Positions 4,684-40,884 of a stretch of 64,000 bases of DNA are shown here, one piece after another. Position numbers and translations under genes: made by a program. Positions within the stretch are counted from its first letter, which is position 1; every line of letters begins with the position of its first letter. Source of the stretch: Duganella sp. BuS-21 (GTDB lineage Bacteria > Pseudomonadota > Gammaproteobacteria > Burkholderiales > Burkholderiaceae_D); NCBI GenBank assembly GCA_041874725.1, contig CP097466.1, forward strand, positions 3,968,001-4,032,000. The letters are read 5' to 3'. Under the pieces are notes generated by a model. It made no database searches. It was not told the DNA's origin and saw nothing but the letters and a program-made list of their open reading frames with translations.

Positions 4684-4700
4684 TATCCGGCCAGCGGATA
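4684..4700. promoter_or_regulatory. operator-like dyad TATCCG-N5-CGGATA (site 1)
   Basis: TATCCGGCCAGCGGATA is a perfect 6+6 inverted repeat with a 5-base spacer in the divergent gap between the hydratase operon and the NIPSNAP operon. The same dyad recurs before several other operons of the region, so it is probably a regulator binding site, with the IclR-type gene at 38826-39692 the best candidate. Confidence 0.7.
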
Positions 4701-4725
4701 GCCACGCCCGCCATGTGCGCCCGCT

Positions 4726-4742
4726 TATCCGCCAGACGGTCA
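4726..4742. promoter_or_regulatory. degenerate operator-like dyad (site 2)
   Basis: TATCCGCCAGACGGTCA keeps the left half TATCCG and CGG of the right half with the same 5-base spacing. It lies 42 bases (four helical turns) from site 1, suggesting paired operators. A third, weaker TATCCA half-site lies at 4775. Confidence 0.5.
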
Positions 4743-4888
4743 GCGCCGCGATCATCGTGGCGCAAGCGTGCGGCTATCCATAATGATCGCCACCACGATC
4801 GCCGCTTGTAAGCCGATGTGCAAGATTCTCCGCGCCGTCGAGCAGCTGCATAACCAGCGCCGCCCCTTTTACGACACCAGAGGACCCC

Positions 4889-5215
4889 ATGTTGATCGAA
4901 CTCCGCATCTACCACTGCCTTCCCGGCCGCCTGCCGGCGCTGCACCAGCGCTTCGAAAACGTCACCCTGGCCTTGTGGCGCAAGCATGGCATCGAACAAG
5001 CCGGGTTCTTCACCACCGCCATCGGCCCCAGCAACCAGACCCTGACCTATCTGCTCAAGTGGGACAGCCTGGCGCAGCGTGAAGTCCGCTGGAACGCCTT
5101 CCTGGCCGATCCGGAATGGATTGCCCAGCGGGCCGCCTCGGAAGCCGATGCGCCCATCGTGGCGCACATCGACAGCTCGCTGCTGTCGCCTACCGCCTAC
5201 TCGGCGTTGCGCTGA
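4889..5215 (+). CDS. NIPSNAP family protein (copy 1)
   Basis: A 108-residue dimeric alpha/beta-barrel protein of the NIPSNAP family, with IELRIYHC at the start and GPSNQTLTYLLKWDSLAQRE in the middle, ending PTAYSALR. Such proteins are small, cytosolic and of uncertain chemistry. In catabolic clusters they often sit beside monooxygenases and hydrolases and may act as isomerases, monooxygenases or binding proteins. It is the first gene of a plus-strand operon divergent from the CoA operon. A close paralogue closes the same operon at 9349-9675. Start ATG was chosen because it follows AGAGGACC and aligns with the paralogue. Confidence 0.88.
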   Translation: MLIELRIYHCLPGRLPALHQRFENVTLALWRKHGIEQAGFFTTAIGPSNQTLTYLLKWDSLAQREVRWNAFLADPEWIAQRAASEADAPIVAHIDSSLLSPTAYSALR

Positions 5216-5229
5216 GCGGTTCGCCCGAG

Positions 5230-5246
5230 TATCCACCCACCGGTTA
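5230..5246. promoter_or_regulatory. degenerate operator-like dyad (site 3)
   Basis: TATCCACCCACCGGTTA, between the first NIPSNAP gene and the EthD-like gene, keeps TATCC and the CGGxTA right half at the usual spacing. It suggests a secondary promoter in front of the EthD-like gene. Confidence 0.4.
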
Positions 5247-5360
5247 GAACGCGAGGCCGTTTTGCCGGCCGAAGTTGCACTCCGTATAGTTTCCTCGACA
5301 GCCAGCCTGCTTGCCTGACCGATCTCGGGCATAGGACAAGGCCCAACCTGGGAGAACCAC

Positions 5361-6293
5361 TTGAACGACATCACCGACCCGAGCGCCATCGAAAACGGCG
5401 CCGGCATTGCCCGCATCACCTGCGGCTGGAAAAAACCGCAGCTCGACCTCGCGCGCGTGCGCGGCTATTGGCGCGACGTCCACAGTCCGGCCATCTCGCG
5501 CCGTCCAGGCCTGTACGAATATCGCCACTACCAGTTCGAGGAGGTCAACGCCAGCCTGTTCGCGCCGGTCACCGGCGTCATCTACCAGGCGCCGCCCGGC
5601 CAGCAACTGATGTGGTTGTCGGATGTACGCTATCGCAACCAGGCCGCGCTGGAGCTCTCCACCGCCGCGCCGGCGCCGGAAGTGCGCGCAAAGATTCTGG
5701 GCGACATCGACCTGCTGGTCGACCAGAGCACCACCTACAAGTCGGTCGGCGCGGACGCCCACACTTACGTTGACCGCACCGGCACCGCCACCCCGGCTGG
5801 CCTAGCCCGCGACGGCAGCGTCAGCGTGTTCTTCCGCCAGCGCGGCGACGACGCGGCCTTCGCCGCCGGCATGCGCGCGCTGGCCGCGCGCTGGGCTGCG
5901 GTCACCGGCGTGCTGCGGGTGCGCCTGAGTATGTTCGAAGCACCCGACATGGAAGCCGAGCGCAAGGCAGGGTACCCGATCAAGACGCACGCCAAGGAGC
6001 TGCAGTACCAGGCTTGGATCGATCTGGTCATGGACAACAACGCCGTGGCGCAAACCCTGATGCAAGCCGGCGATGCCGAGTTCATCGCCACTGTGCATGC
6101 CTACCCGCTGTATTCGCTGTACACCTTCGTCTATAACGCCAAGCCGACCCTGGCCGCGCTGCGCGGCTACGCGGCGCACGCCGCGATCGAGTACTTCGGC
6201 GCCGGCGCGGCCCACCAGACCGACCACGGCCTGCTGTCGTGGATGTACGGTCCCATCGTCGACGGCATCCAACCCGAGGAGGACGCGGCATGA
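5361..6293 (+). CDS. EthD-like dimeric alpha/beta-barrel protein
   Basis: The 310-residue protein starts with TTG at a good distance from GGGAGA. The segment LARVRGYWRDVHSPAISRRPGLYEYRHYQF (residues about 29-58) resembles the EthD domain, where a conserved YW...H.P pattern lies on the ferredoxin-like barrel. A second barrel-like half is likely around 155-260, making it a tandem-domain member, longer than the usual 100-130 residues. EthD proteins accompany monooxygenases and polyketide/aromatic enzymes but have few firm functions. Its stop overlaps the next ATG (ATGA), so it is translationally coupled to the MmgE/PrpD gene. Confidence 0.65.
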   Translation: MNDITDPSAIENGAGIARITCGWKKPQLDLARVRGYWRDVHSPAISRRPGLYEYRHYQFEEVNASLFAPVTGVIYQAPPGQQLMWLSDVRYRNQAALELSTAAPAPEVRAKILGDIDLLVDQSTTYKSVGADAHTYVDRTGTATPAGLARDGSVSVFFRQRGDDAAFAAGMRALAARWAAVTGVLRVRLSMFEAPDMEAERKAGYPIKTHAKELQYQAWIDLVMDNNAVAQTLMQAGDAEFIATVHAYPLYSLYTFVYNAKPTLAALRGYAAHAAIEYFGAGAAHQTDHGLLSWMYGPIVDGIQPEEDAA

Positions 6294-7657
6294 AGACGGT
6301 ATCCGAACGCCTGGTCGCCTTCATCCAGGAATGGAAGCAGCGCGGCGTGCCCGATGCCGTGCTGCACGAAGCGCTGCGTCTGCTGGTGAACCAGCTGAAA
6401 GCCTCGATCGGCGCCACCGACCACCCGGCACTGCGCATCATGCATGCATGGGCGCTGGAGGAAGGCGCCAGTGCTGACAAGCCCGGCGCCAGCATGCTCT
6501 GGTTCGGCGGCCGCACCACACCGGCACAGGCCTGCATCATCAACGGCGCCCTGTTCGAGGTGCTGGACTTTAACGATACCTACATCCCGACCTTCATGCA
6601 TGCCGTCTCCGGCGTGCTGCCGGCGGTGCTGGCGCTGGCTGAAACCGGCCACTACAGCGGCCGCCAGATGCTCACCGCGCTGGCGCTCGGCATCGAGGCC
6701 GAACTGGCCTGCGCCACCATCCTGATGCCGACCGGCTACTACCGCGGCTTTGTTCCGGGCGGGTTGTCCGACGGCATCGGCGCGGCGGCGGCATGCGCCG
6801 TCCTAGCCGGCCTGGACGACGAAAAAATGCGTAACGCCATCGGCCTGGCGATGTGCACCGCGTTCGGCATCTACGAATCGGTCGGTAGCATGGCGTTACC
6901 CTACATCATGGGCACCACCGCGCGTTCCGGCTACACCGCGTTCCAAATGGCGGCGCGCGGCATGGATGCGCCGGCCACCGCCTTCGAGGGCGACAAGGGG
7001 ATGCTCGCCTCGTATTCCGACGAACCAGCCTCGAAAATCGACGGCGTGTTCGCCACGTTGGGACAAACCTGGCGCATTTTCGGCAACAGTTACAAAACCG
7101 TGCCTACCGAAACCATCACCCACGCCCCGGTCGAATGCGTGCTGGAAGTGCTGGCGCGCGCCAACGGCCGCACGGTGGAAAAGATGACTTTCGGCGTCGA
7201 GAAGATCGTGGTCAAGATCGCCGACGAACGGCGTGAGCGTTTCGGCAGACCAAGCAGCGAACTGGAAGCACGCTTCGACCTGCGGTTCTGCGCCGCCGCG
7301 GCATGGGTGCGCGGGCACTTCACGCTGGCCGAGATGCGCGAGGCGGCGTACACCGACGCCGCCATCCTGGCCCTGCGCGACCGCATCGACCTGGTCGGCG
7401 ATCCGAAACGACCGACCTTCGACGGTTGCTCTTTGGAGGTGTTGTACACCGACGGTAGCAGCGACCGCGCGAATGTCGACGACTTCCTCGGCACGCCGGG
7501 GCGGCCGATGAGCGACGCCCAATTATCCAGCGTGTTCCGCAGCGCCGCCAACGGCTTGCTGCCGGCGGGACGCGCCGAAGCGATCCTTGAGGCCGCTTGG
7601 GCCCTGCCCGATGCGCCCGATCTCAGGCGCCTGATGCAACTGTTGACGCTGCAATAA
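6290..7657 (+). CDS. MmgE/PrpD family protein
   Basis: A 455-residue member of the MmgE/PrpD family, which includes 2-methylcitrate dehydratase and cis-aconitate decarboxylase. Visible segments are NGALFEVLDFNDTY, GIEAELACA, KTVPTETITHAPVE and SSELEARFDLRFCAAAAW. The expected reaction is elimination or decarboxylation of a tricarboxylate or related hydroxy acid. The start MKTVSERLV overlaps the previous stop; a longer in-frame start upstream inside the EthD gene is unlikely. An MmgE/PrpD gene also occurs in the P. aeruginosa itaconate operon, supporting a link to the C5-CoA module next door. Substrate unknown. Confidence 0.88.
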   Translation: MKTVSERLVAFIQEWKQRGVPDAVLHEALRLLVNQLKASIGATDHPALRIMHAWALEEGASADKPGASMLWFGGRTTPAQACIINGALFEVLDFNDTYIPTFMHAVSGVLPAVLALAETGHYSGRQMLTALALGIEAELACATILMPTGYYRGFVPGGLSDGIGAAAACAVLAGLDDEKMRNAIGLAMCTAFGIYESVGSMALPYIMGTTARSGYTAFQMAARGMDAPATAFEGDKGMLASYSDEPASKIDGVFATLGQTWRIFGNSYKTVPTETITHAPVECVLEVLARANGRTVEKMTFGVEKIVVKIADERRERFGRPSSELEARFDLRFCAAAAWVRGHFTLAEMREAAYTDAAILALRDRIDLVGDPKRPTFDGCSLEVLYTDGSSDRANVDDFLGTPGRPMSDAQLSSVFRSAANGLLPAGRAEAILEAAWALPDAPDLRRLMQLLTLQ

Positions 7658-7691
7658 GATTGCTTAACTTCATACACCGAGAGCCCACATT

Positions 7692-8504
7692 ATGAGTACA
7701 GTCAAACTGCCGGGTGGCGAAACCATCTGGTACAAGAAAACCGGCAGCGGCGTCCCGCTGCTGCATATTCACGGCTCGGCCTACGGCCACCGTAATTTCG
7801 AAAAGCTCACGCCTCTCGTCTCGCAACATGCCGAAGTTATCGACTTCGACCTGCCCGGCTACGGCGAAAGCCTGATGGGTGCCACCAAGCCGTCCGACAT
7901 GGCCGGAATTTCCGACCAGGTCTACGATTTCATCCGCGCGCTCGGCTACAACAAAGTCAACCTGCACGGCACCTCGTTCGGCGCGATGCTCGGCCTGACC
8001 TTGGCGGCGCGCCATCCGGAAGTGGTCGACCGGCTGGTGCTGAGCTGCTTCCTGGCCCGTTACGACCAGGCGGCGCGGATGATGCGCGGCACCTGGAAGC
8101 GCGCCGCGCTCGACAGCGGCATGGAAGCGGTGGCCGACCTGACCTCGGTGGCAGGCTTCGCGCGTGGTTTTTACGACCGCCCGGAGGCGCAAGCGCAACT
8201 GCAATCGATGCGCGACGCATTCAGCAAAACCATTCCGGCCGCCTTCGTCGCCGGCACCGAGACCATCGAACGCACCGATCTCGGCCCCCTGGTGCCGATG
8301 GTGACGGCCCGAACCCTGCTGCTGGCCGGCGAAGAGGATAATATGTGTCCCTTCAAGCCGTCCGACAGCGGCATCGGCATCTACCAGATGAAGAAGACGC
8401 TGCCGAAGTGCGAATTGCGCATCGTGCCCGATTCCGGCCATTACCTGGTGGTGGAACAGCCGGCCATCACCGCCGACCTGATCGTCGAATTCCTGCAACC
8501 ATAG
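7692..8504 (+). CDS. alpha/beta hydrolase
   Basis: A 270-residue alpha/beta-fold hydrolase with HIHGSAYG (oxyanion region, 26-33), a canonical nucleophile elbow GTSFG with Ser95, LLAGEEDNMCP carrying the acid near 215, and the catalytic His in DSGHYLVVEQP near the C-terminus. No signal peptide, so cytosolic. It could hydrolyse an ester, lactone, enol-lactone or a C-C bond of a ring-cleavage product. It is the fourth gene of the plus-strand operon, 34 bases after MmgE/PrpD and 8 bases before the DUF1838 gene. Confidence 0.9.
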   Translation: MSTVKLPGGETIWYKKTGSGVPLLHIHGSAYGHRNFEKLTPLVSQHAEVIDFDLPGYGESLMGATKPSDMAGISDQVYDFIRALGYNKVNLHGTSFGAMLGLTLAARHPEVVDRLVLSCFLARYDQAARMMRGTWKRAALDSGMEAVADLTSVAGFARGFYDRPEAQAQLQSMRDAFSKTIPAAFVAGTETIERTDLGPLVPMVTARTLLLAGEEDNMCPFKPSDSGIGIYQMKKTLPKCELRIVPDSGHYLVVEQPAITADLIVEFLQP

Positions 8505-8512
8505 GAGCACTT

Positions 8513-9286
8513 ATGTCCAACATCGATTTGTACGAGGCGTACAAGCGCGTAATCGCCACCACCAAGGACGAGATCATCTGCTGGTGGTACTCCGGAGTGA
8601 TCTCGGCCCAACTCGACGACGGCCTCGACATCCAGTGCACCGGCTGCCAGACGCTGATGGCCTTCAAGGTGCAACACCTGTCGCCGACCAGCATGCGCAT
8701 CGACTGGCTCGAAACCTGTCTGCTACGCGACCTGGAAACCGGCGAGCTCAACGAGTATTACAATAATCCGCTGACCGGCCAGCGCGCCAAGCTGGCCAGC
8801 ACCTTCTACGACGGCCCGGTCACTTACTTCGTCAGCAAGAACGGCGACGGCGTCGATCTGCGCATCGAGCAACACGAAGCTGAAATCCTCTCGACCTCGA
8901 TCACCGCGACGGTGGCGGACGGCCGCATCCTGTTCCGCCAGCGCGAGGAAAAGCGCCGCTCGTTCGGCCAGCAGTCGGGCGGCGGCGCCAAGGAGGCCGG
9001 CGTGCACCTGCAGACCGAATTGCTGTTCGCCGCCGACCTGGCCGAGGCGACCAACCCGGCCAACGACAACGTCGCCTCGACCGGCTACTACAGCGCCGGC
9101 GTGGCTGGCATGATCAGCAAATGGATGGACTTCGGCCAGCGCGGCGGCAATTCGATGGTCAAGGGCGTCACCCACAAGGCGCGCGCAGATGAAATGGTCG
9201 TGCCGAAAGCCTGGGCCGTGTTCCGCGAACGCTTCCCCGACTTCTTCGACGGCGACCGCGTCTCGCCCAAGGAATGGCGCGGCTAA
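8513..9286 (+). CDS. DUF1838 family protein
   Basis: A 257-residue cytosolic protein I assign to DUF1838 from its overall pattern (WWYSGVI, ETCLLRDLETGELNEYYNNP, PKAWAVFRERFPDFF). The family has no settled biochemical role but is repeatedly found in catabolic clusters of proteobacteria. The start ATG follows the ribosome site AGGAGC by six bases, so a longer frame opening inside the previous gene was not used. It is followed by a short hairpin with four T's and then the second NIPSNAP gene. Confidence 0.75.
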   Translation: MSNIDLYEAYKRVIATTKDEIICWWYSGVISAQLDDGLDIQCTGCQTLMAFKVQHLSPTSMRIDWLETCLLRDLETGELNEYYNNPLTGQRAKLASTFYDGPVTYFVSKNGDGVDLRIEQHEAEILSTSITATVADGRILFRQREEKRRSFGQQSGGGAKEAGVHLQTELLFAADLAEATNPANDNVASTGYYSAGVAGMISKWMDFGQRGGNSMVKGVTHKARADEMVVPKAWAVFRERFPDFFDGDRVSPKEWRG

Positions 9287-9308
9287 ACTGCGCCGATCGA
9301 TGTAGCAC

Positions 9309-9332
9309 AGGGACCGCTTGCCGGTCCCTTTT
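9309..9332 (+). terminator. weak hairpin, possible attenuator
   Basis: AGGGACCG and CGGTCCCT form an 8-bp stem with a 5-base loop followed by TTTT, between the DUF1838 and second NIPSNAP genes. It may partly terminate the operon or protect mRNA. Confidence 0.45.
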
Positions 9333-9348
9333 CACACCAGGAGAACCT

Positions 9349-9675
9349 ATGATTATCGAATTGCGCGTCTATCACTGCGCGCCGGGCCATCTGCCGGCGC
9401 TGTGCAAAAGCTTTGAACAAGTCAGCTTGCCGTTCTGGGACAAGCACGGCATCCGCCAGGCCGGCTTCTTCACCACCCTGATAGGCCCCAGCAACCAGAC
9501 CCTGACCTATTTGTTGCAGTGGGACAGCCTGGCCGAGCGCGAACGCATCTGGAACAACTTCGTCACCGATCCGGAGTGGATCGCCTCGCGCAAGGCCACG
9601 GCGGCCACCTCGCCGGTGGTGGAGCGGGTGGAGACGTCGTTCCTGACCCCGACCTCGTTCTCGGCGCTGCGCTAA
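9349..9675 (+). CDS. NIPSNAP family protein (copy 2)
   Basis: A 108-residue NIPSNAP protein very similar along its whole length to the one at 4889-5215 (shared: IELR.YHC, QAGFFTT, IGPSNQTLTYLL, WDSLA, DPEWIA, SALR). It follows a clear ribosome site (AGGAG) and ends the plus-strand operon just before a strong bidirectional terminator. Two paralogues bracketing one operon suggest subunits of a heteromer or two related steps of one pathway. Reaction unknown. Confidence 0.88.
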   Translation: MIIELRVYHCAPGHLPALCKSFEQVSLPFWDKHGIRQAGFFTTLIGPSNQTLTYLLQWDSLAERERIWNNFVTDPEWIASRKATAATSPVVERVETSFLTPTSFSALR

Positions 9676-9762: not shown

Positions 9763-11337
9763 TCACGGCTTCGCAGGCGCGGCTTCGAAGCTGGCGGCAT
9801 CGTTGGGGTCGCCCTTGCCCTTGTAGCGCGCCACGCCCGGATAGGCGTAGTGGGGCCGGGTGAAGCCGATCTTAGTACCAACCGGCAGCGGGAACGCGAT
9901 CGCCGCGCGCTGCGGCGCGCTACGCTCGATATGGCTGCCGATCAGCACCTCGGGCGCCTTGCCCTGCTCGACCCACTGTTCCAGCGCATCCAGATAATCG
10001 ATCGCATCGGCGCCGACGCCATCGTTGGTGCAGTGATTCGTCCCCGGCAACATGAACAGCCGGAAGAAGTCGCGCGTTTGCTGCGGCCCGCCCATGGTAC
10101 GCGTCACGGTCTGATAAAAATCCAGGAAGTTCAAGGGCACGATCTGCGGATCGTTCCAGCCCTGGAAACCGATCAACTTGCCGCCACGGGCCTTGAACTT
10201 GCGCAGGTCCGGATTCGATCCGCTGAAGTAGGGCTCGACCAGGCCGAAGCGCTGCGGATCGCGGTCGAAGTCGAACTGCTTCGCCTGCCAGTCCGGCCCA
10301 ACCGACGCGGCGAGTCCGATATGGCGCATGAATTCGCCACCCAGGTCGGTCGACGGCTTGCCGTCGGCGCTGACGAAGGCGCCCAGCCAATTCAGTTCCG
10401 AGCCGAGCGCCAGGCCGCCGGTGTACAGCGGCTTGCCTTGGGAGTCGTGTGGTCCGGCGTAGATCTTGCGCACCACGGCGACCTGGTCCGGGCTCAGGCA
10501 CTGGTCGGCCTGCGCCGCCGGGCACTGCAGGACCGCCGGATCGAAGTCGCAGCTGCGCGGGTCGGCGAGCTGGCCGTCGCGCAAGCCATCCTTGGCGTCG
10601 CACTGCCGCAACACCGCCGCGTGCAGGCGGCGCACATCCGCTTCCTTCACAATCTCACGGTTGTCGCGGTCGCGGTTGGCCAGCGTGGTCCACAGCAGCT
10701 GCATCGCCGCGCCGGTTTGGTTGATGATCGGGCCGCCGGCGATGATGCCGTCGAAGTCGTCGGGGAAGCGCTCGGCTTCCACCATCGCCTGGCGGCCGCC
10801 GGTGGAACAGCCATAAAAATACGATTTCTTCGGCTGGTCCTGATAAAAGCCGGCCACCAGCGCCTTGCCGACCAGCGCCGTCACATGGGTGGAACGGAAG
10901 GCGAAATCGACCAAGGCCTGCTGATCACGCCCCCAAATCCACTCCCGCGACGGACCGCTGTGGCCCATGTCGGTGCTGATGCACGCGTAGCCGCGGCTGA
11001 GCGGCTGTTCGCAGTAGTACTGCCGCGCCGTACCGCAGGATCCGCCGCAACCGTGCTGGAAGAATTTTTCGTTCCAGCCCTCCAGCGGCAGCGCCAGTGT
11101 AAAGTTCACCGCCGGCGCCACCACTCCGCTCACCAGACAAAGCGCCGGCTGCGTACCGGCGGCGGCCACCAACTCGGCTTTGATGATACGGGTCGGGGCT
11201 TCGGCCGGCATAGCCAATTGCGCACTCGGCAGCGCCGCGCAGCGTTCGGCGCCGGTCTGCGCCGAGGCATGGGCCATGGCGCCGGACGTCAGCAGCAGAG
11301 CAATCATCAAACGAAACAGGAAATTAATGCGCGGCAT
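9763..11337 (-). CDS. exported tannase/feruloyl esterase family protein (copy 1)
   Basis: The 524-residue protein has a Sec signal peptide (hydrophobic 8-25, cleavage near ASA-Q27) and the tannase/feruloyl-esterase pattern: GCGGSCG near 97-103, the nucleophile elbow YFYGCSTGGR with Ser178, and a C-terminal LPGTNHC with the catalytic His. The Cys before the Ser and the one after the His form the family's typical active-site disulfide. Such enzymes release aromatic acids or alcohols from esters in the periplasm or outside the cell. It is the last gene of a six-gene minus-strand operon and a full-length paralogue of its upstream neighbour, 24 bases away. Confidence 0.9.
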   Translation of the reverse strand: MPRINFLFRLMIALLLTSGAMAHASAQTGAERCAALPSAQLAMPAEAPTRIIKAELVAAAGTQPALCLVSGVVAPAVNFTLALPLEGWNEKFFQHGCGGSCGTARQYYCEQPLSRGYACISTDMGHSGPSREWIWGRDQQALVDFAFRSTHVTALVGKALVAGFYQDQPKKSYFYGCSTGGRQAMVEAERFPDDFDGIIAGGPIINQTGAAMQLLWTTLANRDRDNREIVKEADVRRLHAAVLRQCDAKDGLRDGQLADPRSCDFDPAVLQCPAAQADQCLSPDQVAVVRKIYAGPHDSQGKPLYTGGLALGSELNWLGAFVSADGKPSTDLGGEFMRHIGLAASVGPDWQAKQFDFDRDPQRFGLVEPYFSGSNPDLRKFKARGGKLIGFQGWNDPQIVPLNFLDFYQTVTRTMGGPQQTRDFFRLFMLPGTNHCTNDGVGADAIDYLDALEQWVEQGKAPEVLIGSHIERSAPQRAAIAFPLPVGTKIGFTRPHYAYPGVARYKGKGDPNDAASFEAAPAKP

Positions 11338-11361
11338 GGGAGTCTACTCCGATCTATAAAA

Positions 11362-12936: not shown

Positions 12937-12948
12937 CGATAACCTCCT

Positions 12949-13824: not shown

Positions 13825-13858
13825 TGAGGTTAAAAGTGAGTGGGCCGGCGGGCGCCGG

Positions 13859-14467: not shown

Positions 14468-14469
14468 GG

Positions 14470-15872
<1,403 letters not shown>

Positions 15873-15873
<1 letters not shown>

Positions 15874-27456: not shown

Positions 27457-27463
27457 AGGGTTC

Positions 27464-28825: not shown

Positions 28826-28862
28826 GGCGTATCCTTGATAAAAAACGATGATGGTCGATGCA

Positions 28863-30065: not shown

Positions 30066-30088
30066 GCGAGTTGGCCCAAAAAGGGTTA

Positions 30089-30114: not shown

Positions 30115-30134
30115 GATAGGGAGACAAACCTGGA

Positions 30135-30983: not shown

Positions 30984-31013
30984 GGATATTCCTATTGATG
31001 GGATTGAATTGGA

Positions 31014-31943: not shown

Positions 31944-32057
31944 GGTGGACTCCGGCGCGGACGCGATCGATGCGGTTAAGCGGTTAAAAAGAAAGGGATT
32001 ACCTGATGCTCAAGAATGACACGGCGCCGGCACGGTGGGCAATGGCGCGCCCCCGCG

Positions 32058-32074
32058 TGACCGCCACGTGGATA
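32058..32074. promoter_or_regulatory. operator-like dyad (site 6, minus orientation)
   Basis: Read on the minus strand, TATCCACGTGGCGGTCA keeps TATCCA and CGG with the standard spacing. It lies between the stop of the iron alcohol dehydrogenase and the start of the VOC gene. Confidence 0.5.
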
Positions 32075-32086
32075 ATCTGGCCAGGT

Positions 32087-33253: not shown

Positions 33254-33330
33254 CGGGGTCCTGGGCTGTGCTGGGATAAAAGTCGCAATCGAGAAGTCGC
33301 CCAGCGTACGCAGATGAGAGCGCGATGAAA

Positions 33331-33379
33331 ACCCGGCGCCGGCGTGTAACCGCCAGCCGGTTACACGCCGGCGCCGGGT
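33331..33379. repeat. 49-bp perfect palindrome containing an operator-like core (site 7)
   Basis: Two 22-base arms, perfectly complementary, flank the 5-base spacer CCAGC. The centre at 33347-33363 reads TAACCG-CCAGC-CGGTTA, the same 6-5-6 architecture as the TATCCG-N5-CGGATA sites. It lies in the divergent gap between the iron alcohol dehydrogenase and the aldehyde dehydrogenase, 78 and 68 bases from their starts. It could be an extended operator or, in RNA, a very stable hairpin. Confidence 0.8.
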
Positions 33380-33446
33380 GGCGGCGCCCACCCCGCCATG
33401 CCACAGTGCCGTCCTGCCCCCTGCCCATTTATTTTCTGGAGACACC

Positions 33447-34901
33447 ATGTTATACCTGGACGACCCTTCCCTGCTGCGCCAGCAAGCCTACATCGGCGGC
33501 GTCTGGTGCGACGCCGACAACGGCGCCACCACCATCGTCACCAATCCCGCCACCGGCGCGCAACTGGGCACCGTGCCGCGCATGGGTGTCGACGAAACCC
33601 GCCGCGCCATCGCCGCCGCCGACGCCGCCTGGCCGGCCTGGCGTCGGCGCGGCGCCAAGGAACGCGCGATCATCCTGCGCGCCTGGCACGATTTGATGCT
33701 GGCCAACAGCACCGATCTGGCCCGCATCATGACGGCCGAACAGGGCAAGCCGCTGGCCGAGTCCACCGGTGAGATCGGCTACGCCGCCTCGTTCATCGAA
33801 TGGTTCGCCGAGGAAGCCAAGCGCGTAGCCGGCGACACCCTGGCTTCGCCCTGGCCGGACCGCCGCATCCTGGTTACGCGCGAGCCGATCGGCGTCTGCG
33901 CCGCCATCACACCGTGGAACTTCCCGTCGGCGATGATCACCCGCAAGGCCGGTCCGGCGCTGGCCGCCGGTTGCCCAATGGTACTTAAGCCGGCCGAACT
34001 GACGCCGTTCTCGGCGCTGGCGCTGGCGGTCCTGGCCGAACGTGCCGGTGTGCCGCCGGGTGTGTTCAGCGTCGTCACCGGCGCCTCGCGCGCCATCGGC
34101 GGCGAGATGACCGCCAACCCCACGGTGCGCAAGCTGACCTTCACCGGTTCGACCGAGGTCGGCCGCGTACTGATGGCGCAATCGGCACCCACCATCAAGA
34201 AGCTGTCGCTCGAATTGGGCGGCAACGCGCCGTTCATCGTCTTCGACGACGCTGACTTGGACCAGGCGGTGATCGGCGCCATGGCCTCAAAATTCCGCAA
34301 CGCCGGCCAGACCTGCGTGTGCGCCAACAGGCTGTACGTGCAGGCCGGCGTGTACGAGGCGTTCGCCGCCAAGCTGGCGGTGGCGGTGGCTGCGTTGAAG
34401 GTCGGCGACGGCATGGAGGCCGGCGTGACGCAAGGCCCGCTGATCGAGGAAAAGGCGGTCCACAAGATAGAACAGCATATCGCCGACGCCCTGCGGCAAG
34501 GCGCGCGCCTGGTCAGCGGCGGCAAGCGCCATGCTCTGGGCAGCACCTTCTTCGAGCCGACCATCCTGGCCGACGTCACCAAGGACATGCTGGTGGCGCG
34601 CGAGGAAACCTTCGGCCCCCTGGCGCCGCTGTTCCGATTCGAGCACGAGGCCGAGGTTTTGACGCTGGCCAACGACACCGAATTCGGCCTGGCCGCCTAC
34701 TTCTACACGCGCGACGTGGGACGCGTGTGGCGCGTGTCGGAAGGACTGGAAAGCGGCATGGTGGGCGTCAATACCGGCTTGATCTCGACCGAGATGGCGC
34801 CGTTCGGCGGCGTCAAGCAATCGGGCCTGGGCCGCGAAGGCTCGCGCTACGGCATGGACGATTACCTGGTCACCAAGTACGTCTGTATCGGCGGGATCTG
34901 A
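33447..34901 (+). CDS. succinate-semialdehyde dehydrogenase-like aldehyde dehydrogenase
   Basis: A 484-residue aldehyde dehydrogenase with the GabD pattern: MTAEQGKPLAESTGEI near 95-110, AAITPWNFPSAMITRK, general base Glu in LELGGNAPFIVFDDADLDQ and nucleophile Cys in NAGQTCVCANR. GabD-type enzymes oxidise succinate, glutarate or malonate semialdehydes with NAD(P). It is divergent from the iron alcohol dehydrogenase across the 49-bp palindrome. The start follows CTGGAGACACC. It would deliver a dicarboxylate to central metabolism. Confidence 0.93.
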   Translation: MLYLDDPSLLRQQAYIGGVWCDADNGATTIVTNPATGAQLGTVPRMGVDETRRAIAAADAAWPAWRRRGAKERAIILRAWHDLMLANSTDLARIMTAEQGKPLAESTGEIGYAASFIEWFAEEAKRVAGDTLASPWPDRRILVTREPIGVCAAITPWNFPSAMITRKAGPALAAGCPMVLKPAELTPFSALALAVLAERAGVPPGVFSVVTGASRAIGGEMTANPTVRKLTFTGSTEVGRVLMAQSAPTIKKLSLELGGNAPFIVFDDADLDQAVIGAMASKFRNAGQTCVCANRLYVQAGVYEAFAAKLAVAVAALKVGDGMEAGVTQGPLIEEKAVHKIEQHIADALRQGARLVSGGKRHALGSTFFEPTILADVTKDMLVAREETFGPLAPLFRFEHEAEVLTLANDTEFGLAAYFYTRDVGRVWRVSEGLESGMVGVNTGLISTEMAPFGGVKQSGLGREGSRYGMDDYLVTKYVCIGGI

Positions 34902-34922
34902 ACGCCTTGCCGCACAATGCGC

Positions 34923-34939
34923 TATCCACAGGCTGGATA
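34923..34939. promoter_or_regulatory. operator-like dyad TATCCA-N5-TGGATA (site 8)
   Basis: TATCCACAGGCTGGATA is a perfect inverted repeat about 95 bases before the alpha/beta hydrolase start, placing a regulated promoter before the hydrolase-amidase operon. Confidence 0.68.
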
Positions 34940-34974
34940 GCGCGGCGGCGCCGATTGTAGCGGCGCCGCCGCGC
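34940..34974. terminator. GC-rich hairpin after aldehyde dehydrogenase
   Basis: A perfect 14-bp GC stem (34940-34953 with 34961-34974) and 7-base loop directly follow operator site 8. There is no T-run, so it may be a weak or factor-dependent terminator of the upstream gene or a structured leader of the next. Confidence 0.45.
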
Positions 34975-35034
34975 TGCTACATTGGCACCATCGCGGTCCG
35001 GGCCTTGCCGGCCGCATTGAAAAGGATACCTCTC

Positions 35035-35835
35035 GTGAAACGTGGATATGTCGATGGCCGCTATGGCCAGGTGCATTATTGGGAACATGGCGCGAGCGGC
35101 ACCCTGCCCGACTTGTATTGCCTGCATGCGACCGCCTATTCGGGCCAAACGCTGCTGCCGCTGCTGGAAAGGCTGGGACGGGACCGGCGCGTGATCGCGC
35201 TCGACACACCCGGCTATGGCGGCTCGGACGCGCCGCCGGCGCCGATTCCCTTCGAAGCCTACGGCCTAGCGATCGCCGAAGCGATCCGCGCGGCACGCGG
35301 CGCCGCATCGGCGCCGGTCGACCTGTTCGGCTACCACACCGGGGCGCTGCTGGCGACCGAGGTGGCGGCGGCCGATGCGGCGCTGGTGGCGCGCCTGGTC
35401 CTGATCGGCGTGCCGTTCTTCAGCGCGGAGGAAAACGCCGCCTGGCGCGACAAGCTGGTGCACAAGTCCGTGCTCACCGAGTCGTTCGACCAGTTTCGCG
35501 CCCGCTGGGATTATTTCATCACCAACCGCACGCCGGGCTTGCCGCTGCGACGTGCCTTCGACTGCTTCGTCGACGAGCTGCGAGTCTACCCGCGCGACTG
35601 GTGGGCCCACGGCGCGCTGATGGACTACCGCGCCGATCTGCGCCTGCCGCTGGCCAGCGCGCCGGCGCTGGTGATCAATCCGCGTGGCTCGCTGGAACAA
35701 CAGTCGCGCAATGCGGCGCGGGCCATGCCGCGCTGCACGCTGGTCGAACTGCCGCAGGTGGGCGGCGCGCCGTTCGACCTGGCGCCCGACGCGCTGGCCG
35801 ACGCCATGCGCGAGTTCCTGACGGCCACGGCATGA
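35035..35835 (+). CDS. alpha/beta hydrolase with GYHTG elbow
   Basis: A 266-residue alpha/beta-fold protein. GTG at 35035 is the start because AAAAGGA precedes it by nine bases. DTPGYGGSD near 57-65 is typical, but the nucleophile elbow reads GYHTG (99-103), with His101 where Ser is expected. GxHTG forms are known in a subgroup of these proteins whose chemistry is unclear. Its stop overlaps the amidase start (ATGA), so the two are coupled and may act in sequence. Confidence 0.85.
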   Translation: MKRGYVDGRYGQVHYWEHGASGTLPDLYCLHATAYSGQTLLPLLERLGRDRRVIALDTPGYGGSDAPPAPIPFEAYGLAIAEAIRAARGAASAPVDLFGYHTGALLATEVAAADAALVARLVLIGVPFFSAEENAAWRDKLVHKSVLTESFDQFRARWDYFITNRTPGLPLRRAFDCFVDELRVYPRDWWAHGALMDYRADLRLPLASAPALVINPRGSLEQQSRNAARAMPRCTLVELPQVGGAPFDLAPDALADAMREFLTATA

Positions 35836-37121
35836 AGACCGAACCATCGCAACTCAGCGCCAGCGAACTGGCGCCCTTGCTGGCCAGCGGCCGGCTGACG
35901 GCGGAAGCCGTGGCGCGCAGCTGCCTGGAACGGGTGAGCCTGCGCGACGGCGAATTGCGCGCCTGGGCCTTCGTCGCGCCCGACGCGGTCATCGAGCAGG
36001 CGCGCGCGCTGGATCGCGCCGGTCCGCGCGGCCCGCTGTTCGGCATCCCGGTCGGAGTCAAGGACGTGATCCTGACGCGGGACATGCCGACCCAGTACAA
36101 CTCGCAGATCTACCGGGGTTTCCATCCGCGCATCGACGCCGCCTGCGTGGCCACGCTGCGCGCCGCCGGCGCCCTGATCTTCGGCAAAGTCGACACGGTG
36201 GAATTCGCCGCCACCGGCCGCCCGGCGCCGACCCGCAATCCGCACCATCCGGCGCATACGCCGGGCGGCTCGTCGAGCGGTTCCGCCGCCGCCGTGGCGG
36301 ACTTCCACGTGCCGCTGGCGCTGGGGACGCAAACAGGCGGCTCGATGATCCGCCCCGCCTCCTACTGCGGCGTATATGGCTTCAAGCCGACCTGGAACTT
36401 GGTCAGCCCTGAAGGCGCCAAGATGTTTTCGGCCACGCTCGACACCATCGGCTGGTTCGGCCGCTCCGCCGCCGATCTGGCGCTGATGCTGCGGGTGTTT
36501 GACCCGGAATCGGCGCCGCCGCTGGCCCTCGCCGGCGCCCGCGTCGCGCTGTGCCGCTCGCCGGTATGGCGGCAGGCCGACGCCGACACCCGCGCAGCGT
36601 TCGAGGGCGCCGCCGAACGGCTGCGCCTCGCCGGCGCCGAAGTGGTCGAACTGACGTTGCCGGCTCCGTTCGAACGCTTGCCCGCGCTGCAGTTGCTGAT
36701 CATGCGCGCCGAGGCGCGCGGCACCTTCCTGGCCGAGCACCGCATGCACGCCGCCGAACTGCATGCGAGCCTGAACGCGATGGTCGAGAACGCCCACGGC
36801 ATCAGCCGCGCCCAACTGTGCGAGGCGTACGATACGGCGGCGGCCTGCCGCGCCGCATTCGATCGCATCGCCGCCGCCTACGACGTGGTATTGACGCCGA
36901 GCACCGTCGGCTGCGCCCCGGCCGGCCTGGAGCAGACCGGACCGTTGACCTTCAACGGCATCTGGTCGCTGCTGCAGGTGCCGGTGGCAAATGTGCCAGG
37001 CTTCACCGGCGCCGGCGGCCTGCCGGTGGGCCTGAGCGTGACCGGCCCACGCTTCGCCGACGCCCGCGTGCTGGCCGCCGCGCAGGCACTGGGCGCACTG
37101 TTCGAGCCGCTATCCATCTGA
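35832..37121 (+). CDS. amidase signature family hydrolase
   Basis: A 429-residue amidase-signature enzyme. The Ser-cisSer-Lys triad can be traced: Lys77 in GIPVGVKDVI, Ser147 in GGSSSGSAA and the nucleophile Ser171 in LGTQTGGSMIRP. It hydrolyses a linear amide, or in some cases an ester, in the cytosol. The short ATG start overlaps the preceding hydrolase stop; a much longer open frame starting inside that gene is a shadow. An amidase supports a nitrogen-containing substrate or intermediate. Confidence 0.93.
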   Translation: MKTEPSQLSASELAPLLASGRLTAEAVARSCLERVSLRDGELRAWAFVAPDAVIEQARALDRAGPRGPLFGIPVGVKDVILTRDMPTQYNSQIYRGFHPRIDAACVATLRAAGALIFGKVDTVEFAATGRPAPTRNPHHPAHTPGGSSSGSAAAVADFHVPLALGTQTGGSMIRPASYCGVYGFKPTWNLVSPEGAKMFSATLDTIGWFGRSAADLALMLRVFDPESAPPLALAGARVALCRSPVWRQADADTRAAFEGAAERLRLAGAEVVELTLPAPFERLPALQLLIMRAEARGTFLAEHRMHAAELHASLNAMVENAHGISRAQLCEAYDTAAACRAAFDRIAAAYDVVLTPSTVGCAPAGLEQTGPLTFNGIWSLLQVPVANVPGFTGAGGLPVGLSVTGPRFADARVLAAAQALGALFEPLSI

Positions 37122-37208
37122 CGGACAAAGGCCGGCCGGCGGTTGATGGCGCCGACCGGGGCCGGTATAGTCGAACCATCCTTCATCACAACCACTTAAA
37201 GGCGCAAC

Positions 37209-38063
37209 ATGACAGACGTGAACAATCTCATGATTCAAGGACGGGCGGGCAAGCTGTCGGTCCGCACCAAGGGCATCGCAGCCAAACCAGCCAACGTGGT
37301 GATCCTGGTGCAAGGCGCCAACATGTCGGGCCAGATGGGCTATGACTTCAGCTTCCCGGGCTCGACCGACTACTCGATGATGGACGCGATGGTCGAGGGA
37401 GGCTTCGGTGTGGTGACCTTCTCGGTGCGCGGCTACGCCGCCTCGGAAGGCCCGGCCGACCTGTTTGAAGTGCAGACCGACGCCGCCATCGAAGACCTGG
37501 CCAGCGTGGTCGACTGGGTGCGCGCCGAACTCGGCTACAAGCGCCCCCACCTGCTGGGCTGGTCTTGGGGCGGCCGCATCACCGGCCGCTATGTCGAGGA
37601 CCACGCGGACAAGGTCGATCGCCTGATCATGCTCGACCCGGCCATCGGCGGAGGCAACAAGATCCTGCCGGTGCCGACCGACGCCACCTGGCTCAACAGC
37701 TACGACTACTTCAAGGACCGCCTGGTGGCCGAATTCGCCGACCCGGCGGTGCAGGAACTGCTGGCGCGCCGCATGGATAAAGAAGAACTGCGCGCGCCGA
37801 ACGGCATTCGCATGGAAAACGCCATGGGCAGCAAAGCCGTCGATCCGAGCAAAGTCACCCGCCCGACGATGATGTCGTACGGGATCAAGGCCGGCGCGCA
37901 AAACTACATGCACGGCGGTTGGGACCGGCTGGAGTTCTTCAACGCTCTGGCGACCGACGACAAGAGCTTCGCCATCGTCCCAGGCGGCGGCGACTACGCC
38001 CACCTCGAGCAAGCGCGCACGCGCGTGTTCGCCGACTGCATCGCCTTCCTGCGCGCGGCCTAA
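37209..38063 (+). CDS. alpha/beta hydrolase
   Basis: A 284-residue alpha/beta-fold hydrolase with LVQGANMSGQMGYDF as the oxyanion region (37-51), the canonical elbow GWSWGG with Ser near 119, and a C-terminal His in GGDYAHLEQARTR. Start ATG follows AAAGGCGCAAC. It is the third gene of the plus-strand operon, 87 bases after the amidase. It may act on a ring-cleavage product, for example in the way deformylases or enol-lactone hydrolases do. Confidence 0.9.
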   Translation: MTDVNNLMIQGRAGKLSVRTKGIAAKPANVVILVQGANMSGQMGYDFSFPGSTDYSMMDAMVEGGFGVVTFSVRGYAASEGPADLFEVQTDAAIEDLASVVDWVRAELGYKRPHLLGWSWGGRITGRYVEDHADKVDRLIMLDPAIGGGNKILPVPTDATWLNSYDYFKDRLVAEFADPAVQELLARRMDKEELRAPNGIRMENAMGSKAVDPSKVTRPTMMSYGIKAGAQNYMHGGWDRLEFFNALATDDKSFAIVPGGGDYAHLEQARTRVFADCIAFLRAA

Positions 38064-38108
38064 ATCCGGCCGGCGCGCCGGCTCGTCTGACACTTTTTCG
38101 GATCGCTC

Positions 38109-38762
38109 ATGAGCCAAGAAAAACCCGGCCTGCTCGAGGCAGACTATCAGCGCGCCGGCTTCGGCGCCCACCTGCCGTTCGGGACCCGTCCCGCGTTGCT
38201 GGTGGTCGATGTGGTGGAAGCCTACCTGCGTCCGGAAAGCGGCCTGTATGCGCCGGCCTTCGTCGCCGCGCTGGAATCGAACATCCGCCTGGTGGCGGCG
38301 GCGCGCCAGGCCGGCGTGCCGGTCATTTTCACCACCATGCTGTATTGCGCGGGAACGGCCGGCCTGGACGGCGGCGTGTTCTTCCGCAAGGCTCCGGCCT
38401 TGCGTGCCTATCTGGCCGGCTCGCCGCTGGCCGCCTTTTCGCCGCGGCTGCTGCCGCGCGCCGACGAGATCGTGGTGAGCAAGCAGTATGCGTCCGCGTT
38501 CTTCGGCACGTCGCTGGCCTCCACCCTGAACGCGATGCGCATCGACACGGTGATGTTGACGGGCTTCTCGACCTCGGGCTGCGTACGCGCGAGCACGCTC
38601 GACGCCATGCAGCACGGCTTCGTGCCGTTCGTCGTGCGCGAGGCCTGCGGCGACCGCGACGCCCGCCCGCATGAGGCGAACCTGTTCGATCTGCAGGCCA
38701 AGTATGCGGAGGTGGTGGGGGAGCAGCAAGCGCTCGCCCTGCTTGCCGGCCAAGACGGTTGA
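38109..38762 (+). CDS. isochorismatase-like hydrolase (maleamate/carbamoylsarcosine amidase type)
   Basis: A 217-residue cysteine hydrolase with the triad Asp34 (LLVVDVVEAY), Lys125 (VVSKQYASAFFGT) and Cys158 (TGFSTSGCVRAS). The N-terminal extension and the SGCVR nucleophile site fit the N-carbamoylsarcosine amidase/maleamate amidohydrolase (NicF-like) group rather than true isochorismatases. Such an enzyme would release ammonia from a maleamate-like intermediate. It closes the operon, with a hairpin separating it from the converging IclR gene. Confidence 0.9.
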   Translation: MSQEKPGLLEADYQRAGFGAHLPFGTRPALLVVDVVEAYLRPESGLYAPAFVAALESNIRLVAAARQAGVPVIFTTMLYCAGTAGLDGGVFFRKAPALRAYLAGSPLAAFSPRLLPRADEIVVSKQYASAFFGTSLASTLNAMRIDTVMLTGFSTSGCVRASTLDAMQHGFVPFVVREACGDRDARPHEANLFDLQAKYAEVVGEQQALALLAGQDG

Positions 38763-38825: not shown

Positions 38826-39692
38826 TTAATGCATCATCACCTGCGCCTCGATCTCGGCGATCGCCGCCTTGGCCTTGCGCGCGCGTTCTGCTGGCGCCGG
38901 AATCACCCGCGGAGCCTGCGAATCGGCCGTGACCTTGTCGCTGATTTCCTGCGCCACCTGTTTCAAATCCGGCATATAGCGCTTGAGCGCCTCGGCCATC
39001 GTCATCGACGATGAGAAGAAGGTCAAGGTCAGGATCGCCACCAGGCGGCCGTTGTCGAACAGCGGCACGCTCATCGACGAGGTCTTGCCGGGGCTCAGCG
39101 ATATGCGGTTGCGGTCGTGCGTGGCGTAGCCGTCTTCGCGGATGCGCTCCACCAATTTACCCGACTCGAACATCGACAGCGTCAGCGAACGTCCTTCCAT
39201 TTCGATGATACCGTTCAGCACGCACTGGCGTTCCTCTTCGGAAGCGTAGGCCAGATAGGCATGGCCGCAGGCGCTCTCAAGAATCGGGAAGGTGTAACCG
39301 GGATCGTAATTATTGAATGTCAGCGAACTCAGCGAATGGGTCGAATCGCGCACGATCATCCACTGGCCGACGTGGGTGGCGATGGAAACCGGCCAGGAGA
39401 CCTTCTTGGTCAGGCCGACGATGTGCGGACGGGCGAGCACCAGCATATTGCCTTCGCTGTGGAACCCTGCCGAAAGAGACTTCACCAGGGCGGTCGCGCG
39501 GTAGCGCTTGCGGGTCGGTTCACATTCGATCAGGCCCTCGTAAATCAAGGTCTGAATGATGCGGCAAGCGGTCGGGTATGGCAGCTCGATCATTTTAGCG
39601 ATCTCCATCAGCGACAGCGAACCGTGCCGATTGATTGCTTGAAGCGCCGCGATGCTCCGACAGACCGCGCGGACTGGGATACCTCTTTCCAT
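38826..39692 (-). CDS. IclR family transcriptional regulator (MhpR-like)
   Basis: A 288-residue IclR protein. The winged helix-turn-helix is at about 8-65 (VRAVCRSIAALQAIN, SLMEIAKMIELPYPTACRII), and the effector domain follows (WPVSIATHVGQWMIVRDSTH, PILESACGHAYLAY, LTLTFFSSSMTMAEAL). The spacing and motifs are close to E. coli MhpR, an activator of aromatic acid catabolism. The start MERGIPVR is fixed by AAAGGTGAG; an upstream in-frame Met would add 17 residues. It is the only regulator in the 43-kb catabolic region and the best candidate to bind the recurrent TATCCG-N5-CGGATA dyads. Confidence 0.92.
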   Translation of the reverse strand: MERGIPVRAVCRSIAALQAINRHGSLSLMEIAKMIELPYPTACRIIQTLIYEGLIECEPTRKRYRATALVKSLSAGFHSEGNMLVLARPHIVGLTKKVSWPVSIATHVGQWMIVRDSTHSLSSLTFNNYDPGYTFPILESACGHAYLAYASEEERQCVLNGIIEMEGRSLTLSMFESGKLVERIREDGYATHDRNRISLSPGKTSSMSVPLFDNGRLVAILTLTFFSSSMTMAEALKRYMPDLKQVAQEISDKVTADSQAPRVIPAPAERARKAKAAIAEIEAQVMMH

Positions 39693-39936
39693 AAATCTCA
39701 CCTTTACTAGAAACGTGCTAATTACCTCAAGAGCGACTGTCAAGCGCCTGCTCAGGCAGTCCTCGCCGTACTACGACGCAAAGATCATGCCATCAAGGAA
39801 ATTTAGATATCAAATAAACATCTTTCCAGGCCGGGATCCAAAGCACATGGGCGACGCTTGTCGCACCATTGTGTCATCGCGCAGTCACAATTGATTCTAG
39901 TCCTAAAGCCGCCACTGTTGTGCCGCGATGCCTCCC

Positions 39937-39953
39937 TATCCACCAGGCGGATA
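39937..39953. promoter_or_regulatory. operator-like dyad TATCCA-N5-CGGATA (site 9)
   Basis: TATCCACCAGGCGGATA matches the dyad with one asymmetric base, about 105 bases before the GST-like gene and 245 bases from the IclR start, where it could serve both. Confidence 0.68.
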
Positions 39954-39968
39954 CGAAAAAGATACACC

Positions 39969-39985
39969 TATCCGCCAAGTGGTGA
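39969..39985. promoter_or_regulatory. degenerate operator-like dyad (site 10)
   Basis: TATCCGCCAAGTGGTGA keeps the left half and GG of the right, 32 bases (three helical turns) from site 9, repeating the paired arrangement seen at 4684 and 4726. Confidence 0.5.
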
Positions 39986-40055
39986 CCGGCCGCCGCAGGC
40001 CTGACAGGTGCATCGCGCACGGCCATGCTGTGGCACCACCAGCAAGGAGTGAGCA

Positions 40056-40847
40056 ATGGACCAGCAAATCATCATGTACCATTTTCCAGGTTGTCCGTTT
40101 TCCGAACGGATTGAAATTCTGATGGCGCTCAAGGGCCAGTCGGCGCGACTGAGCATGGTCGATATCGACTTGTCCAGCCCGCGCCCGGAGTGGCTGTTGA
40201 AAAAAACACGGGGCGGCACGGCGCTCCCAGCCATCGACGTCCCGCAGGGAACGATCAAGGACAGCATGGTCATCATGCGCTATCTTGACAGCGCCTTCCC
40301 GGCCCGCCCGGTTGCCCATCCAACGCCCTATCTGCACGCGCTCGAAGAGATGCTGGCCGGGCTCGCGCCGGCGCTGTCGACCGCGGCTTACAAAATGATT
40401 CAGAACCGTGACCCTCAGTTATGCGCACCATTGCGGTGCCAAGTCGACATCCAGTTTGGTGCGATCGACGCTTTTCTTCGCCTATACAGCTCGGACGGCG
40501 ATTTACTGCTCGACCACTTCGGTTGGGCCGAAACCATTTTGACGCCGGTGTTCAAGAGGCTCTGGTTCCTGGAGTATTACGAAAACTACGCTATCCCGCC
40601 ACAATACGAACGCGTCATCCGCTGGCGCGCGCAATGCCTGGCCCATCCTGCCGCGCAGGCGCACGACCACAAGGAAATAATCAAACTCTATTACGACTAT
40701 AGCCAGGGCGCGGGAGGCGGCCGGCTGGCGCCGGGCCGCGCCGTGTCCAGCTTCACGCTAAGCGTGGATGTCGGCGCCCGCCCAATGCCACCGCGCGACA
40801 AATGGCTGCCCACGACCGATCAGTCGCTGGGATTGGTGCTTGGCTGA
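40056..40847 (+). CDS. glutathione S-transferase-like protein
   Basis: A 263-residue protein with an N-terminal thioredoxin-like domain (MYHFPGCPFSERIEILMALKG, then LPAIDVPQG and DSMVIMRYLDSAFP) and an all-helical C-terminal domain, as in GSTs. The PGCPFSER site keeps a Cys, so thiol chemistry such as dehalogenation, ring-opening isomerisation (maleylacetoacetate isomerase-like) or glutathione lyase activity is possible. It carries a C-terminal tail of about 40 residues beyond the usual fold. First gene of a three-gene operon with a Baeyer-Villiger monooxygenase and an esterase. Confidence 0.82.
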   Translation: MDQQIIMYHFPGCPFSERIEILMALKGQSARLSMVDIDLSSPRPEWLLKKTRGGTALPAIDVPQGTIKDSMVIMRYLDSAFPARPVAHPTPYLHALEEMLAGLAPALSTAAYKMIQNRDPQLCAPLRCQVDIQFGAIDAFLRLYSSDGDLLLDHFGWAETILTPVFKRLWFLEYYENYAIPPQYERVIRWRAQCLAHPAAQAHDHKEIIKLYYDYSQGAGGGRLAPGRAVSSFTLSVDVGARPMPPRDKWLPTTDQSLGLVLG

Positions 40848-40867
40848 GCGCAGCCGTGGTGCGCCGA

Positions 40868-40884
40868 CTATCCACAAGGAGAAC
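40868..40884. promoter_or_regulatory. half operator-like site (site 11)
   Basis: TATCCACAAGGAGAACA has only the left half of the dyad, between the GST-like and Baeyer-Villiger genes. It could be chance. Confidence 0.25.

Follow-up and report, generated by a model that had tools for sequence, protein, structure and literature searches.

The 64,000-nucleotide stretch analysed here (the window; C1:3968001-4032000, about 1% of the 6,489,671-bp genome of Duganella sp. BuS-21) carries a catabolic gene cluster, a gene for an IclR-family regulator within it, and a recurring dyad, TATCCG-N5-CGGATA, whose full form is close to TATCCGCCWGGCGGATA. A sequence-only reading had taken this dyad as the mark of one regulon; here we describe how its copies are distributed, how they relate to the regulator gene in other bacteria and how they are placed relative to predicted promoters. 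The regulator gene and the predicted operators are listed below by position and strand, with the score under a weight matrix built from foreign sites, the gene that each faces and, where there is one to give, the predicted promoter on the gene-facing arm (-35 hexamer, spacer length, -10 hexamer, and the offsets of both hexamers from the operator).

38826-39692, minus: IclR-family regulator, MhpR-like; 288 amino acids from ATG; HTH_IclR and IclR_C domains above gathering scores
4684-4700, minus: operator, 22.3 bits; faces the MaoC-like gene 3757-4605; TCGGCA-17-CAGACT at 15/38
4726-4742, plus: operator, 17.5 bits; faces the NIPSNAP gene 4889-5215; GTGGCG-16-CATAAT at 14/36
5230-5246, plus: operator, 15.7 bits; faces the gene run 5361-9675; TTGCCG-17-TATAGT at 15/38
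17441-17457, minus: weak operator, 7.7 bits; faces the aldehyde dehydrogenase (ALDH) gene 15873-17447, whose start is probably over-extended, and the run down to 9763; TTTTCG-17-TATCGT at 15/38
20779-20795, minus: operator, 10.9 bits; faces the PhyH gene 19810-20676; newly found
23379-23395, minus: operator, 10.2 bits; faces the TonB-dependent receptor gene 20827-23322; newly found
26208-26224, minus: operator, perfect, 27.9 bits; faces the 2Fe-2S (25679-26140) and molybdopterin subunit genes; TTGCGC-18-TTCAAT at 15/39
32058-32074, minus: operator, 12.8 bits; faces the glyoxalase/dioxygenase-fold gene 31014-31943 and the run down to the MFS gene at 26230
33347-33363, no strand assigned: operator variant TAACCG-N5-CGGTTA, 16.4 bits; between the divergent genes for an iron-type alcohol dehydrogenase (Fe-ADH, minus) and an ALDH (plus)
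34923-34939, plus: operator with half-sites TATCCA/TGGATA, 17.5 bits; faces the alpha/beta hydrolase gene 35005-35835 and the amidase gene; TTGTAG-17-TACATT at 15/38
37111-37127, plus: operator, 19.3 bits; faces the alpha/beta hydrolase gene 37209-38063; TTGATG-17-TATAGT at 15/38; newly found
39937-39953, minus: operator, 26.2 bits; faces the IclR gene itself; TAGAAT at offset 37
39969-39985, plus: operator, 14.0 bits; faces the GST-like gene 40056-40847; CTGACA-17-CATGCT at 15/38
40869-40885, plus: doubtful half-site, 9.3 bits; 14 bp ahead of the FMO-like gene

The dyad occurs exactly at 4684 and 26208 and with one mismatch at 39937, whereas the copy at 34923 (TATCCACAGGCTGGATA), which had been counted among the complete or one-mismatch repeats, differs from the consensus at two bases, yet its half-sites are mutually symmetric. 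The variant reported at 33347 is there and reads TAACCGCCAGCCGGTTA, and the weaker copies at 4726, 5230, 17441, 32058 and 39969 stand as well; the remaining one, placed at 40868, really begins at 40869 and amounts to little beyond a half-site. As a list, the eleven sites named earlier were too few, since 37111, 20779 and 23379 had been overlooked. The statement that all sites are intergenic holds for 11 of the 13 matrix-site centres, where the intergenic share of 4501-41000, reckoned with the longest open reading frames (ORFs), is 6.2%; the other two are 33347, which lies in a probably over-extended ORF start, and 37111, which lies over a stop codon.

Confinement to the window is plain for the strict form of the motif. 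Exact matches to TATCCR-N5-YGGATA occur at four places genome-wide, all of them in the window (4684, 26208, 34923 and 39937), and the reversed control occurs at none, so that a random distribution over the genome, which had been named beforehand as a result that would speak against a local regulon, is not what is seen. Looser scans are uninformative: with up to two mismatches the whole genome gives 151 places and the reversed control 113, too noisy to decide, and with up to three mismatches the window gives 25 places where shuffled versions give 18.8, a count reached by 10 of 100 shuffles and not significant. A matrix was also trained on foreign sites alone (37 different 17-mers, none taken from the window) and applied both to the window and, as background, to 280 kb elsewhere in this genome. 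At 12 bits or more, it finds 10 sites in 4501-41000 and none in the background; at 9 bits or more, the numbers are 13 and 3, where 0.39 would be expected in 4501-41000. This matrix, whose spacer centre is C-W-G, recovers nine of the previously noticed sites in addition to the three new ones. It also gives a 16.1-bit match at 61097-61113, inside the ORF 59843-62101 and about 20 kb outside the cluster, which we read as chance.

The same sequence recurs ahead of related regulator genes in other genera. A profile of 31 relatives of the regulator yielded IclR loci of which the best 80 of 113, about 1.5 Mb in all, were used; they include Novosphingobium, Caulobacter, Sphingomonas, Niveispirillum, Polaromonas, Variovorax and Roseateles. 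At 56 of the 80 loci, the 300 bp ahead of the IclR start contain a copy that departs from the motif by no more than two bases (35 of them exact); 179 permuted half-sites put to the same count reach a mean of 0.96 loci and a maximum of 9. Over the loci as a whole, the 5-bp gap gives 46 exact and 35 one-mismatch copies, where the 180 half-site orderings (the real one included) average 4.2 and the runner-up reaches 39; any other gap, from 0 to 4 or from 6 to 13 bp, gives at most one exact and seven one-mismatch copies. Five strong sites lie within about 10 kb in each of two loci, L086 (9895, 9965, 10835, 16547 and 20529) and L017 (9699, 9928, 14675, 14726 and 19282).

Genomes with and without the regulator differ accordingly in their motif counts. 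Among 74 congeneric genomes the regulator is found in this one only (0 of the other 73 at E ≤ 1e-15), and those 73 hold 40 exact TATCCRN5YGGATA places, at most two in a genome, where the reversed control has 78; this is no more than background, and persistence of the motif in relatives that lack the IclR gene, the second result that would have counted against the regulon, is not seen. Three congeners (G289, G177 and G067) carrying TATCCGTCAGGCGGATA were considered as exceptions and rejected: their sites fall in one conserved stretch, 85-90% identical among the three over most of 18 kb and read as coding by eye, with no window orthologue nearby. In 18 regulator-bearing genomes (17 chosen from the 80 loci, plus the betaproteobacterial assembly G036), there are 44 exact places against 2 for the control, spread over 15 genomes and often several on the regulator's contig; the genomes of loci L010, L012 and L020 have the regulator and gave no exact match. 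A family-wide sample shows the regulator in 2 of 294 genomes, and the 37209 hydrolase in the same two, and the gene for the isocitrate lyase (ICL)-like protein is present in 1 of the 74 congeners at E ≤ 1e-80. G036, the second of these two genomes, has two regulators of the window kind on contigs C48 and C10, which share 63% and 60% identity with the one described here. On its contig C22 lie orthologues (40-75% identity) of the amidase, hydrolase, PhyH, 2Fe-2S, molybdenum cofactor (MoCo), acyl-CoA dehydrogenase, CoA-transferase and MaoC-like genes. Of the two exact sites there, one (L092:9876) stands directly ahead of the 75%-identical hydrolase orthologue, as site 37111 does in the window.

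The operators also keep a fixed distance to predicted promoters. For 11 sites the gene-facing arm was set from the gene layout before any promoter score was computed; the set leaves out 39937 and 40869 and reads 33347 toward the plus side, though its minus side is better (8.5 against 0.4). Over these arms the -10 score is highest at offset 38, where it reaches 2.16 (the average is -5.06), a height matched in 1 of 20000 circular shifts; the -35 score has its maximum at offset 15, and the distance between the two maxima is exactly that of a 17-bp spacer. The combined 15/38 peak of 4.17 stands against -2.8 at the next offset, is reached by 0 of 20000 circular shifts, and persists without the two TATAGT promoters (5230 and 37111), while the opposite arms of the same sites show no promoter peak (p 0.16). 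The layout is thus operator, 15 bp, -35, 17 bp, -10, with sigma-70-like promoters; with the start taken seven bases after the -10 hexamer, the operator centre falls near -59. Across 203 dereplicated arms from other genomes, 15/38 ranks first of 60 offsets (-6.51; mean -8.19, standard deviation 0.52), and under a combined operator-promoter score nine window arms exceed the best of the 280-kb background (19.2). Site 17441 is weak as an operator but has its promoter at the common offset. This fixed position upstream of -35 (15 to -35, 38 to -10), as in a class I-like activator arrangement, suggests activation from upstream.

Two close pairs had been described as spaced by whole helical turns, and the spacings of 42 bp (4684/4726) and 32 bp (39937/39969) are correct. 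Sites 4684 and 39937 have a promoter on the left arm only, and 4726 and 39969 on the right arm only; because only the outward arms carry a promoter at the common offset, we read the pairs as back-to-back operators, one for each divergent promoter, rather than as tandem sites, and cooperative tandem binding was dropped on the same ground. Other close pairs in relatives lie 51, 54, 70 and 72 bp apart, with no shared spacing. The 33347 operator is centred in a perfect 22-bp inverted repeat with a 5-bp loop (33331-33379), and because this repeat lies between divergent genes, both promoters have identical operator-proximal sequence.

The regulator belongs to the IclR family by both domains (HTH_IclR 31.5 bits, cut-off 22; IclR_C 32.5 bits, cut-off 24), and many of its relatives are labelled mhp operon activator by one source. 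Its scores nevertheless stay below the thresholds of the specific models, with 139.7-141.4 bits against the 251-299 required by the PRK09834 models, which we take to be MhpR, and 73.5 against 284.75 bits for TIGR02431 (PcaR/PcaU/PobR); by analogy it would be an IclR protein working like MhpR, not a proven MhpR. The MhpR operator is centred at -58, and PobR and PcaU have a dual role, activating their targets and repressing their own gene.

The operators can be compared with published ones. MhpR, the IclR-family activator of 3-(3-hydroxyphenyl)propionate catabolism in Escherichia coli, has the operator GGTGCACCTGGTGCACA, a 17-bp palindrome with a CCTGG centre like that of the window dyad and 10 of 17 bases shared with TATCCGCCTGGCGGATA; it serves one operon, whereas the window regulator would serve about a dozen predicted promoters (PMC8222616 for the MhpR operator). 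The PobR operator of Acinetobacter baylyi, TTGTCCGATSATCGGACAR, has the same 5-bp gap and the half-site TGTCCG, one base apart from TATCCG (PMC8222616). In the survey by Suvorova and Gelfand (2021, PMC8222616), the IclR group-1 motifs follow GKTYCRYW3-4RYGRAMC and fall into four subgroups, including TGT-11-ACA; the window dyad shares their 17-bp length and the YCRY...RYGR core, but has outer TA/TA instead of TG/CA (TA for GK) and a C-W-G centre instead of W3, so that its TAT-11-ATA form fits none of the four subgroups described there exactly. PheR of Sphingobium sp. SHPJ-2 is likewise a proteobacterial IclR-family protein that governs uptake and the breakdown of aromatic compounds; unlike the window regulator as read here, it is a repressor, and its 44-bp protected region has a GCAACG core and, in the portion of the report at hand, no TATCCG dyad (PMC13273656). 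Among the papers listed by searches of the published literature, none described this operator or regulon; of 982 papers that contain both hexamers, the 20 listed mostly had them in primers, so that this comparison decides nothing. What is newly noted is the fixed operator-promoter distance; group-1-like operators were already known, and the predicted regulon is unusually large.

The IclR-type regulator encoded in the cluster very probably docks at the dyad, given that the same sequence stands ahead of the related regulator gene in many bacteria and keeps a fixed distance to predicted promoters. A dimer of the regulator would occupy each copy; at most target promoters the operator would end 15 bp before the -35 hexamer, with its centre near -59 from the predicted start, and the inducer-bound protein would most likely help RNA polymerase to start, in the manner of MhpR-type activators. 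One regulator would in this way act on about a dozen promoters and, given read-through of the operons, on some 36 catabolic, uptake and transport genes, and would also control its own gene. We put the probability of this reading as a whole, in which the protein encoded at 38826-39692 binds the dyads, likely activates about a dozen promoters from near -59 and controls its own gene, at about 0.86. The single IclR regulon over about 35 genes proposed by the sequence-only reading gains support from the confinement of the motif and its link to the regulator gene across genomes, whereas binding by the IclR protein and the response of all 36 or so genes are what we infer from these patterns, as are the sign of control (activation), the inducer and the substrate.

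Several points weigh against this reading. The loci are the best 80 of 113 and include many close kin (Novosphingobium, Caulobacter), so they are not 80 independent events; 24 of them have no site with at most two mismatches upstream of IclR, and 19 have none of at least 11 bits. Resemblance to the half-sites noticed first decided which foreign sites went into the matrix, so its spacer columns are independent but its half-site columns are not, and promoters were scored with -35 and -10 tables of approximate frequencies. Among the 210 foreign sites of at least 11 bits, 106 are more than 350 bp away from any window-orthologue start, and the window promoters at 4684, 20779 and 40869 fit poorly. 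Finally, the 15/38 promoter is missing from 41 IclR-facing arms in other genomes; these do best with a -10 at offset 8, and the operator would then overlap the -35 hexamer of the regulator gene.

This last result bears directly on the possibility that the IclR protein does bind the sites but mainly represses, leaving when an inducer arrives; repressors are common among IclR proteins (PMC8222616 and PMC13273656). We regard mainly repressive control as unlikely, though worth keeping in mind: at the target promoters an operator 15 bp upstream of -35 and in fixed phase suits contact with polymerase better than blocking, and several of the -35 hexamers are poor, which does not favour repression. 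For the regulator gene, control may be of another sign, with repression of its own gene possible in other genomes; in the window, where the IclR-facing arm has TAGAAT at offset 37, autoregulation may take either sign. Far less probable is that the dyad is bound by a different regulator, encoded in the cluster or elsewhere, and that the IclR gene is just one of its targets. Room for such a protein exists in that, of 220 ORFs with 90 or more amino acids, 51 were compared with Pfam. Regulator domains turned up in two of these 51, the IclR protein and, outside the cluster, a LacI-family protein (54339-55367). Moreover, the motif follows the IclR gene in two classes that differ in their neighbouring genes, the 73 congeners lacking IclR have no motif excess, and the dyad has the form of an IclR group-1 motif (PMC8222616). 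That the dyads are chance palindromes of GC-rich intergenic DNA, as the non-significant loose scan of the window alone might allow, is refuted for the strong sites by the exact scan, the counts upstream of IclR, the foreign matrix and the promoter geometry and is scarcely credible overall, although 40869 could be chance.

Read through from their operators, the runs would place some 36 genes, from 550 to 43489, under this control:

550-4605, minus: HpcH/HpaI lyase, CoA-transferase III, acyl-CoA dehydrogenase, MaoC-like hydratase
4889-9675, plus: NIPSNAP, unknown protein (5361-6293), MmgE/PrpD, alpha/beta hydrolase, unknown protein, NIPSNAP
9763-17447, minus: two tannase-family proteins, ICL/phosphoenolpyruvate (PEP)-mutase-like, LeuD-like, LeuC-like, ALDH
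19023-26140, minus: arylmalonate decarboxylase (AMDase)-like, PhyH, TonB receptor, MoCo large subunit, 2Fe-2S subunit
26230-33448, minus: two MFS transporters, FAD monooxygenase, NmrA, glyoxalase/dioxygenase fold, Fe-ADH
33378-38762, plus: ALDH, alpha/beta hydrolase, amidase, alpha/beta hydrolase, isochorismatase-family amidohydrolase
40056-43489, plus: GST-like, FMO-like, alpha/beta hydrolase

By its domain content, the 550-4605 run recalls a methylsuccinate/mesaconate-type route. Two gene pairs look like duplications, the adjacent tannase-family genes (9763-11337 and 11362-12936) and the NIPSNAP genes (4889-5215 and 9274-9675). To the right of the cluster, beyond guaA/guaB-like genes, a PEP-CTERM protein (50755-51528) lies in a stretch of lower GC content (0.505 at 50001-52000).

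Several of these enzymes recur at the relatives' loci (83, two pairs being the same contigs): the ICL-like protein at 50, the isochorismatase-like at 38, the AMDase-like at 36, the LeuC-like at 33 and the FAD monooxygenase at 31. Sites of at least 11 bits near gene starts exceed random placement for the FAD monooxygenase (10 against 1.45), the LeuC-like protein (7 against 1.75), the TonB receptor (5 against 0.8) and ALDH (10 against 3.35), with no excess for the ICL-like (3 against 3.35) and isochorismatase (2 against 2.9) genes. Among solved structures, the FAD monooxygenase is best matched by PnpA and HspB, the isochorismatase-like protein by N-carbamoylsarcosine amidohydrolase and the MoCo subunit by aldehyde oxidoreductases; the best relatives of the ICL-like protein include methylisocitrate and 2,3-dimethylmalate lyases, arylmalonate decarboxylase and maleate isomerase turn up as weak matches, and the 37209 hydrolase has no solved relative at 1e-8. 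Since these relatives are mixed, they do not pin down the substrate, and a pyridine-type pathway is a lead only.

A wider picture can be drawn tentatively, and we would not yet favour it. An undescribed MhpR-like activator branch in Alpha- and Betaproteobacteria, with a TAT-11-ATA operator near -59, may run a scattered catabolic island as one regulon, and the recurring enzymes (FAD monooxygenase, AMDase-like isomerase, isochorismatase-family amidohydrolase, LeuCD-like hydratase and ICL-like lyase) may make up a ring-opening pathway not yet characterised, whose substrate might be an alkylated N-heterocycle and whose end products would be branched dicarboxylates. If the main reading holds, an IclR protein would run about a dozen promoters, above the number usual in a family whose members in general regulate themselves and one or two adjacent operons (PMC8222616). 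The operator and its fixed promoter spacing would then be a signature that predicts membership in an uncharacterised catabolic pathway in many soil- and plant-associated bacteria, one that would work where gene neighbourhood alone fails and would name both the regulator and a ready sensor part.

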